A DNA stretch of 64,000 bases from Candidatus Gastranaerophilales bacterium (GTDB taxonomy: Bacteria > Cyanobacteriota > Vampirovibrionia > Gastranaerophilales > Gastranaerophilaceae). Below are positions 32,218 through 55,383 of the stretch, one piece after another. Made by a program: the position numbers and the translations under genes. Under the pieces are notes generated by a model. The model worked only from the letters and a program-made list of their open reading frames with translations, was not told where the DNA came from and did no database searches. Numbering within the stretch: position 1 is the first letter of the stretch; each line of letters opens with the position of its first letter. Where the stretch lies: NCBI GenBank assembly GCA_944323165.1, contig CALURK010000008.1, positions 1 through 64,000 of the forward strand, in the 5' to 3' direction.

Positions 32218-33132
32218 TTAGAGACCACTTTTGATTAATGTATCTATATAACGGATAATTTCATTTTTATCTTGTGAATTTACTTGTCTTAATACTTCAG
32301 ACATACTTACTAATTTGTGTGGTAAGCATATAAATTTCTCAGCAGCAGTCCTGATATTTTGTAATGCACTTTGTAACGGCGCATTTGGGTTCTCTACAGT
32401 ACGACTGCTAATATCAATTAATTTGTTTGATGCTCTTAAATCTTTTAGCTTATTCACTTCTTTTACAATATCATCTTTATGTTTGTTAACATCTATCATT
32501 GAATTTGTAAGTTCTATGTATTTTTTAGTATCGTCATATAAATTGTTTAAATGAGTTCTTTGCATTGCATTAGAATCGTCCATTCGTACTTTTGCATTAT
32601 ACATTCTTCTTAGCCCTTCTCCCTTTTGGAAAAGATCTTGACCATATTGATAAGCATCATATTGTTCAGAGGAAGCACTATTGTATAATCTGTATGCTTT
32701 ATCTGCAGAAACTTTGTTATTAAAAAAACTTTTTTCTAACATTGCTTTTTTCTCATTTTTCATTTCTAAAAATGCGTTATATTTTTTATAGAGAACTTCT
32801 AATGACTTTTCTCTGTTCATTGCCGGTTTTTCATCTATTGTACGGCGCATTGTACCATCATAATTTACGAAATATGATTCTGTACCTAAAATGTCTTTTG
32901 AAGTTTCTGCTCTATAGGTAGTATTTCTTAAATAGATTTCTTCGTTATCAGGAAGTTTTGAATCATATATGTCAAAACTTTGTTTATTTGCCATTCTGCT
33001 AATGTCATAATTGTGATTCTTTTCCCAGCTGTATGGTTGGTATTCCATTTTCCAATTGCCACTATTTTCTTTCGATTTATCTGTAAATAGACCTTTAAAA
33101 TTTGTATTTGCATGTATTGATTGTATTTTCAT
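32218..33132 (-). CDS. Lineage-type hypothetical protein with N-terminal F-x-G motif
   Basis: 304 aa beginning MKIQSIHANTNFKG. It has no signal peptide or membrane helix. After a polar, aromatic-rich N-terminal third it becomes largely helical with heptad-like Lys/Glu/Leu patterns (about 120-260), so part is probably coiled coil. It lies 27 nt downstream of a second F-x-G protein and was likely co-expressed or duplicated with it. I do not recognise a named domain. Confidence 0.55.
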   Translation of the reverse strand: MKIQSIHANTNFKGLFTDKSKENSGNWKMEYQPYSWEKNHNYDISRMANKQSFDIYDSKLPDNEEIYLRNTTYRAETSKDILGTESYFVNYDGTMRRTIDEKPAMNREKSLEVLYKKYNAFLEMKNEKKAMLEKSFFNNKVSADKAYRLYNSASSEQYDAYQYGQDLFQKGEGLRRMYNAKVRMDDSNAMQRTHLNNLYDDTKKYIELTNSMIDVNKHKDDIVKEVNKLKDLRASNKLIDISSRTVENPNAPLQSALQNIRTAAEKFICLPHKLVSMSEVLRQVNSQDKNEIIRYIDTLIKSGL

Positions 33133-53545: not shown

Positions 53546-53575
53546 TTGACAGCACACAATAAAAAGTTGTATACT
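53546..53575 (+). promoter_or_regulatory. Strong promoter of the attenuator leader
   Basis: TTGACA (53546-53551), 18-nt spacer, TATACT (53570-53575). Start of transcription is expected near 53582, two nucleotides before the leader ATG. Confidence 0.75.
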
Positions 53576-53583
53576 TTGAAGCA

Positions 53584-53652
53584 ATGAACAATATCTATAT
53601 TACAAACAATACATCCTCCAATTGCTCCAAGTTTCTATCGGGACTTGAGTGA
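53584..53652 (+). CDS. Putative leader peptide (22 aa)
   Basis: MNNIYITNNTSSNCSKFLSG-LE, ending TGA. Asn (5), Ser (4) and Thr (2) are enriched in the first 16 residues. Its end covers segments 1 and 2 of the attenuator, so ribosome position on it could choose the hairpin. The ATG lies about 2 nt from the expected transcript start, without a Shine-Dalgarno sequence. Confidence 0.4.
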   Translation: MNNIYITNNTSSNCSKFLSGLE

Positions 53653-53692
53653 TTTTGGTGTGTAGTTTTTGTAAGTAACCAAATTTATAAAC

Positions 53693-53726
53693 AAAAAAAG
53701 TCCCGTATGTAATGCGGGGCTTTTTT
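53693..53726 (+). terminator. Intrinsic terminator of the leader
   Basis: AAAAAAG-T-CCCG, loop, CGGG-G-CTTTTTT. The stem is 12 bp with one G-T pair and ends in a T-run, 32 nt before the next gene's start codon. Confidence 0.85.
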
Positions 53727-53758
53727 GTTGTGTATGAACGACTTGGAAAGGACGATTA

Positions 53759-55267
53759 ATGAAAGTAGGAAACGTAAATAGTAATGTAGTATTCAGAGGG
53801 CCTTTGGACGGGGCATTAACCGGCATTTTAAGAACTTGTGATATGAATGAGATGGTTAATGCTGTTGGTCTTGATGTTGGAGCAATGGTTATTCCTAGAG
53901 CGTATTATGATACAAAGAAGCGAAATGAATACGCAGGTGCCGAAACATTTATACGAGAAATTAGCGGAACTTTCATAAATTGTCTTTCAGCAGGTTTATT
54001 TGCAATGGGGATTTCAAAGGTCGTATCAAAAAATATTCAGCCGGAAGTAAAAATTAATTCTGAGAGCTGGTATTCAGAAGAATCTCTGGAAACATTAAAC
54101 AAATCTTGGAAAAAGAGCGGTAATGTTGATACTTATCTGAAAACTGTCCTTGAAAATATATCGGGCAGGGACGGAATGAGGATAAATCATTTTAAAGACA
54201 TAGACTGGAATAAAGTCGAGTGGATAGATGAAGCTCGTTGGGATAGAATTCATTGGGATAATCCGGAGTATAAAGGTATCCAAAATGATTTGAAAACAGA
54301 AAAAGGCTTTGTAAACACACTCAAAAAACTTATAAAGGATGAGAATATAACAAAAGATGATAAGAAGTTTGCTCTTTCAATTATTGAAAAACGTCTAACA
54401 AATGCTCTGGGTGCGGAACGTGATACTGAATTAAATATTGATGGGACTAAACTTTCTGCCAAATTAGAAAATATTTTGCGTGATACACACGATATGGCAA
54501 AAGATATTTTTACAAAGAAAAGTAATAAGGAAATAGAACAAGCAATTAATAAGATTTCACGCGTAAATAAAATTAAAGCCTTTGGTGCTATTTCAGCATC
54601 TTGTGTTTTAGGGCTTACAAATCAGTGGATTAATAGAAAAATAACAGAAAAAAGGACAGGTAAGAAAGGCTTTGTGGGTGATGTCGATTACACTTCTACA
54701 TTTAGAGGCGAACAGAAAAAAGACAAATTACTAATTTTAAAGAAGCTTGGTGCAAGTGCACTTATGGCAGGAATGGTATTTAGTGTAATGGGTGTAAAAA
54801 ACTTTAAGCAATTTGCCAAAAAGCTCGAATTTACAGGGCCGATTACGAGCGGTAATGCTATAAAAACCGTTTATGCCGCAAATATAATCGGAAGATTTAT
54901 GGCGGCAGATAACGGAACCGAACTACGAGAGTCAATGACAAGGGATTATTTGGGCTTCTTAAACTGGCTTGTATTTGGCGGTTTTGCGGCGAAAGGTGTT
55001 GCAAATCTTTTGGACAAAAAAGGTAAAGACTTATTCAATTACAAAAAGGACGGCAAAGGTTTAAGACACTGGCTTAATGATATGTCATTAAAGACTCATA
55101 ATGAGGTTGCATCAAAAGGGAAAGCTTTTGCAAAGAAAAATATGTGGAAGCTAAACCTCGCTCAAGCTTCAGGTATTGCATATTCTGCGGTAACTTTAGG
55201 AATATTGCTTCCGATGATGAATGCAAAAATTACAGAAATGAAGGCAAGAAAAAACAGAGGGGGGTAA
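53759..55267 (+). CDS. Large hypothetical membrane-associated protein with F-x-G motif
   Basis: 502 aa beginning MKVGNVNSNVVFRGPLDGAL. Hydrophobic segments lie around residues 70-88 (SGTFINCLSAGLFAMGIS), 278-292, 320-340 and 465-482, so it may associate with the membrane, although none is a textbook signal peptide. Between them are charged helical stretches. Basic and Gly-rich C-terminus (NAKITEMKARKNRGG). It has an AAGGAC ribosome binding site and is preceded by the candidate attenuator. No known domain recognised. alaS begins 117 nt downstream. Confidence 0.55.
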   Translation: MKVGNVNSNVVFRGPLDGALTGILRTCDMNEMVNAVGLDVGAMVIPRAYYDTKKRNEYAGAETFIREISGTFINCLSAGLFAMGISKVVSKNIQPEVKINSESWYSEESLETLNKSWKKSGNVDTYLKTVLENISGRDGMRINHFKDIDWNKVEWIDEARWDRIHWDNPEYKGIQNDLKTEKGFVNTLKKLIKDENITKDDKKFALSIIEKRLTNALGAERDTELNIDGTKLSAKLENILRDTHDMAKDIFTKKSNKEIEQAINKISRVNKIKAFGAISASCVLGLTNQWINRKITEKRTGKKGFVGDVDYTSTFRGEQKKDKLLILKKLGASALMAGMVFSVMGVKNFKQFAKKLEFTGPITSGNAIKTVYAANIIGRFMAADNGTELRESMTRDYLGFLNWLVFGGFAAKGVANLLDKKGKDLFNYKKDGKGLRHWLNDMSLKTHNEVASKGKAFAKKNMWKLNLAQASGIAYSAVTLGILLPMMNAKITEMKARKNRGG

Positions 55268-55383
55268 ATATATTACCATTTACCCTATAGAGTAATTTGG
55301 CTTATTCTTTCAAGAATATATTTACCCCTTTCTACCCTTTGATGTATAATTAGTTTACATGTAGAGAAAAAGGGATTAATTAT

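Follow-up and report, generated by a model that had tools for sequence, protein, structure and literature searches.

Upstream of FxG, an uncharacterized gene in the stretch of Candidatus Gastranaerophilales DNA that we analyzed (64,000 nucleotides, here called the window), we found an element that is likely a trp-type, ribosome-mediated transcription attenuator. On this reading it would sense Ser-tRNA (UCN), with Cys-tRNA sensed before paralogues, and would induce FxG in starvation; the function and the response are inferred, without expression data. What the comparison shows is a conserved promoter, an open reading frame (ORF) carrying a Ser or Cys run, covarying 2:3 and 3:4 helices, and placement of the run just ahead of segment 1 (Table 1). 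An earlier note, made from the sequence alone, had claimed the promoter, a 22-codon leader ORF, and mutually exclusive 2:3 and 3:4 pairings, and all of these held by sequence and covariation. The leader-peptide attenuator layout that it proposed also held and is supported by the comparative evidence. The 1:2 pairing that it included is present as sequence in the window but lacks covariation support.

Table 1. Coordinates of the leader elements and the FxG gene in the window
Feature	Position	Strand	Remarks
Sigma-70-type promoter TTGACA-18-TATACT	53546..53575	+	TTGACA 53546-53551, 18-nt spacer, TATACT 53570-53575; 11/12 consensus matches
Leader ORF MNNIYITNNTSSNCSKFLSGLE, then stop; 22 codons	53584..53652	+	From sequence; Ser- or Cys-run leader in 79/80 relatives
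Regulatory codons TCC TCC AAT TGC TCC (Ser Ser Asn Cys Ser)	53614..53628	+	Relatives' run mostly TCC/TCA
Segment 1 CAAGTTTC	53628..53635	+	1:2 helix with partner GGGACTTG at 53640-53647; 83.5% paired (32 sequences), no covariation excess
Segment 2 CGGGACTT, antiterminator 5' arm	53639..53646	+	Perfect 8-bp helix with segment 3 in the window; 2:3 helix 97.3% paired (32 sequences), 13 doubly changed cells
Segment 3 AAGTCCCG, antiterminator 3' arm and terminator 5' arm	53698..53705	+	Covariation of 2:3 and 3:4
3:4 intrinsic terminator hairpin and T-run	53694..53726	+	15 pairs; 98.6% paired, 8/9 pairs doubly changed (32 sequences)
Conserved unpaired block TTTTGGTGTGTAG	53653..53665	+	RNA polymerase pause site is a guess
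Shine-Dalgarno-like GGAAAGGA of the FxG gene	53745..53752	+	From sequence
FxG gene (putatively regulated), 502 aa, uncharacterized	53759..55267	+	Predicted mostly helical, four moderately hydrophobic stretches

Distribution and setting of the leader

A protein-profile scan of GTDB contigs yielded 80 named loci with FxG homologues (52 to 90% identity), mostly labeled Candidatus Gastranaerophilales or uncultured gut or rumen bacteria. A short, run-bearing ORF precedes the homologue in 79 of them (68 Ser and 11 Cys), which with the window gives 69 Ser-run and 11 Cys-run leaders. The sole homologue without a leader (L098) has lost it despite 74% protein identity, a point against the attenuator reading. 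Other genomes also encode a clade of more distant paralogues (L071-L078, L080, and L081) in which every leader is of the Cys type, as in MNKSFVNNLICCCCKSCC followed by a stop, with AAGAACTT/AAGTTCTTATTTTATTAAGAACTTGTTTTTTT. Ser-type and Cys-type copies occur together in genomes G005, G009, G013, G018, and G030.

Searching 97 related genomes with the leader DNA gave its strong matches upstream of FxG orthologues, and an RNA model of the leader gave 33 strong matches, all at loci preceding FxG homologues; its weaker matches mostly covered the terminator half alone. Among about 50 Cys4-run leader sites examined in these genomes, those with a terminator all lie before FxG homologues, and neither the RNA-model nor the run-leader searches found any other gene behind such a leader. 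Among the sites examined in the window's own genome, none of the other Ser4 or Cys4 leaders had a terminator. No Ser or Cys leader was seen before deeper FxG paralogues, including two in that genome (L082), and no FxG was found on viral contigs. The L082 locus (contig C24, 5949-8955) is a tandem pair of distant paralogues with 27 to 32% identity.

Of the 80 leaders, 68 have a similar promoter no more than 75 nt from the leader start, compared with 0.9 expected from shuffles. The window's leader ATG is 8 nt downstream of the -10 hexamer, and its mRNA is therefore leaderless or nearly so. Such a gap of 6 to 9 nt is found in 22 leaders, the window's included, while in another 40 the 5' UTR is longer and contains a Shine-Dalgarno-like sequence. 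One frame is retained from the ATG to segment 2 in 29 of 32 relatives, and this, together with those Shine-Dalgarno-like sequences, indirectly supports leader translation, which is itself inferred and unmeasured. The frame is less well kept across the spacer to segment 3 (19, 9, and 2).

The protein itself gave few clues. FxG matched no Pfam or NCBIfam family above the curated cutoff; Pfam DUF7770 and ASA5 were rejected because their matches were below cutoff or weak. Its AlphaFold model (pLDDT 83.8) is mostly helical, and neither the sequence nor the model identified a clear solved relative in the PDB, the best structural matches (Foldseek E of 0.26; Z of 6.3 over 95 residues) giving no convincing fold. 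The hydrophobic stretches score 1.28 to 1.57 over 19 residues, and membrane association is possible by inference from sequence, the protein's location not having been shown. Separately, an N-terminal N-x-x-F/Y-x-G motif is shared by otherwise unlike predicted proteins starting at 33132 (-), 59839 (+), and 53759 (+) (MKIQSIHANTNFKG, MKISGLNEYNVAYTG, and MKVGNVNSNVVFRG).

The earlier note had pointed to alaS following the hypothetical protein. We rejected alaS as an operon partner and place it outside the unit, as it lies 3' of FxG in only 4 named loci; the FxG-alaS gap in the window contains a strong hairpin and a promoter-like site, TTTACC-18-TATAAT. A long hairpin, GGGGGGTAAATATAT/ATATATTTACCCC, occupies 55262-55340 after the FxG gene, and TTTACCCC repeats also occur upstream of the L071 and L155 genes.

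Alternative helices and the proposed switch

In the proposed mechanism, RNA polymerase would start at the promoter and make the leader, and a ribosome would enter at the near-5'-terminal AUG. With ample Ser-tRNA (UCN isoacceptors), the ribosome would continue as far as the stop codon, next to segment 2, and cover that segment, so that 3:4 would form and transcription would stop near 53726. With scarce Ser-tRNA, the ribosome would stall on the Ser codons and mask segment 1; segment 2 would then pair with segment 3, the terminator would be blocked, and FxG would be expressed. Before the paralogues, an identical device with Cys codons would sense Cys-tRNA. Leader translation, stalling, the direction of the response, and a benefit from FxG under Ser or Cys shortage are all inferred in this scheme, and no expression data bear on them.

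Covariation was assessed in 32 aligned Ser-type leaders. The changes in the 2:3 antiterminator were equaled in 0 of 500 shuffles, and sliding that helix by 1 to 3 columns lowered pairing to 24 to 56%. The 3:4 terminator contains 25 doubly changed cells, and segments 2, 3, and 4 covary jointly, as in TCGGAACTT/AAGTTCCGA/TCGGAACTT and TCAGAGCTT/GAGCTCTGA/TCAGAGCTT. Compensatory change was the check set by the earlier note, and finding it in both 2:3 and 3:4 leaves the attenuator unrefuted. A terminator is present in 75 of the 80 leaders, and in nearly all of these the sequence upstream includes a complement of the terminator's 5' arm (mean z of 4.2 for Ser leaders and 2.4 for Cys leaders). RNAalifold returned only the terminator from the whole alignment, as expected because the antiterminator and terminator helices are mutually exclusive.

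These data also bear on a rival in which a discrete small RNA ends at 53726 and FxG has its own promoter. The transcript is indeed compact, stable, and terminated: the 154-nt leader RNA folds at -45 kcal/mol (z = -5.8), and 0 of 200 shuffles were as stable. Against this rival, no plus-strand promoter-like site is listed between 53726 and the FxG start, the unit always lies upstream of FxG homologues with its reading frame conserved, and the 2:3 helix, which is incompatible with the terminator, covaries. We consider a separate small RNA very unlikely.

For the attenuator reading, we then folded each RNA as an ensemble with the nucleotides masked that a ribosome would cover and recorded the probability that segment 3 pairs upstream. 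The median was 0.86 when a ribosome occupied the first codon of the run, 0.19 when it was at the stop, and 0.41 when there was none; the window gave 0.83 and 0.0007 for the first two states. In these assays, the stall-versus-stop contrast partly follows from masking itself, and comparison with shuffles is the fairer test. Shuffling the unmasked spacer gave 0.47, and only 44 of the 75 leaders beat 29 of 30 shuffles, which counts against the model. Two further caveats apply. Compensatory change in the 1:2 helix is not in excess, and with free RNA giving 0.41, the state without translation is unresolved, which also weighs against an attenuator. In a deeper Ser clade, the leader stop is about 20 nt beyond segment 2, and a ribosome there may not fully cover that segment.

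A conserved block near the leader stop (TTTTGRTGTGTAG) was found in 62 of 80 leaders, compared with 8 of 80 shuffled ones, in both Ser and Cys types and outside all three helices. It contains a TGYG core about 14 nt past hairpin 1:2. This core is similar to the consensus of elemental RNA polymerase pauses. A pause there could synchronize polymerase and ribosome, which remains only a guess without pausing data. In a deeper clade, the TTTTGGTGTGTAG block falls inside the ORF.

The lack of an explanation for this block is the point in favor of another rival, in which an unrecognized ligand-binding riboswitch or T-box drives the terminator and the ORF is coincidental. No Rfam family matched at its gathering score, the T-box riboswitch and the amino-acid leader families included; the best of the latter was Thr_leader (25.5 bits versus 55), and several matched weakly, as expected of a terminator-bearing leader. 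In addition, conservation around the ORF is at the level of codons and not of structure, and the device persists across changes of the run between UCN and UGY. This rival, too, seems very improbable.

The probable sensed residue and its exchange

The earlier note had suggested ribosome speed or tRNA-Asn/Ser charging as a possible signal. Ser was kept, and Asn was rejected because its residues are absent from several relatives, for example, MRRLYFTVSSSSSSKSDSELE (L104); Cys takes the regulatory place before paralogues. Of 374 run codons, 203 were TCC, 139 TCA, 13 TCG, 11 TCT, 4 AGC, and 4 AGT, versus 14, 57, 6, 53, 24, and 23, respectively, among the 177 Ser codons of five window genes. This bias (chi-square P of about 1e-43) is beyond general codon use. 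The genome encodes tRNA-Ser with anticodons UGA, CGA, GGA, and GCU and one tRNA-Cys, which implies that UCN isoacceptors read the run. The window's own run is short, with three Ser codons interrupted by Asn and Cys, and this counts against the attenuator reading. Given this caveat, the comparative sequences still make Ser (UCC/UCA) the likely regulatory residue, with Cys instead before paralogues; both assignments are inferred.

Alternatively, the leader could sense general slowing of the ribosome, for example, by antibiotics as at erm-type leaders, with the residue run incidental. Read-through would then follow any stall within the run. However, every run is of Ser or Cys codons, with synonymous ones mixed (TCC/TCA/TCG/TCT and TGT/TGC) and length variable, and what arrest peptides usually conserve is a particular peptide sequence. 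The sensor also swaps between Ser and Cys with the paralogue clade. General slowing is thus an unlikely explanation.

Returning to a Ser- or Cys-specific attenuator, we mapped leader type onto a tree of 76 FxG proteins. The label changes at least 2 times, versus about 18 in shuffles; under midpoint rooting, the main Ser clade is nested in Cys-type branches, and one Ser type, L070, sits among Cys types. A single base separates UGY from UCY. Proteins behind Cys leaders have a mean of 0.7 Cys versus 3.0, and those behind Ser leaders contain 4.35% Ser versus 7.1%. Cognate bias predicts a low content of the sensed amino acid in controlled proteins (PMC4209129), and our values may reflect it. This evidence is merely suggestive because only two label changes underlie it, L070 lacks the bias, and shared ancestry confounds it. 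A bolder reading, to which we lean by a small margin, is that two switches present across the lineage, one for Ser starvation and one for Cys starvation, control a single, possibly membrane-associated family (here in Gastranaerophilales only), with the sensor flipped between Cys and Ser and the proteins avoiding the sensed residue.

Relation to known attenuators and meaning

Most known leader-peptide attenuators come from Proteobacteria and Actinobacteria, with some from Firmicutes (PMC2965389). The trp/his-type attenuators (Rfam Trp_leader, Phe_leader, Thr_leader, and Leu_leader) likewise combine a leader ORF bearing regulatory codons with an alternative antiterminator and terminator; here, however, the codons are Ser (or Cys) and the target is neither a biosynthetic operon nor a tRNA synthetase. 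Mycobacterial attenuators with leaderless polycysteine ORFs respond to cysteine (Canestrari 2020, cited in PMC9031893; predicted in PMC1262725). They share the Cys-codon run within a short leaderless ORF but have no conserved terminator hairpins (PMC1262725) and are located upstream of cys operons, whereas our leaders have intrinsic terminators and an uncharacterized gene. The uORFC-8-2 motif before Rhodobacterales cysS (PMC8632094) is alike in having Cys codons in tandem, a predicted structure, and a terminator with a U-run; it differs in controlling cysteinyl-tRNA synthetase, in having two Cys codons, and in lineage. In the Bacillus subtilis sinR serine sensor (PMC3862929), UCN codons also slow ribosomes under serine starvation, but there is no leader peptide or terminator and the effect is within the sinR coding sequence.

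We found no Ser-codon attenuator in the open-access literature searched, which did not cover subscription papers. Cys-codon attenuators are already known; what is likely new is the use of Ser codons for sensing, a dedicated target whose function is unknown, and the sensor swap. If this is true, no transcription attenuator with Ser codons would have been described before this one, and the element would be an example of an RNA sensor that has changed its amino acid with its architecture unchanged. It precedes nearly every close FxG homologue in a nonphotosynthetic lineage of the gut that is related to cyanobacteria. It would also link this gut-bacterial family, whose function is unknown, to the supply of serine and cysteine, making shortage of these amino acids the first testable condition for FxG proteins.
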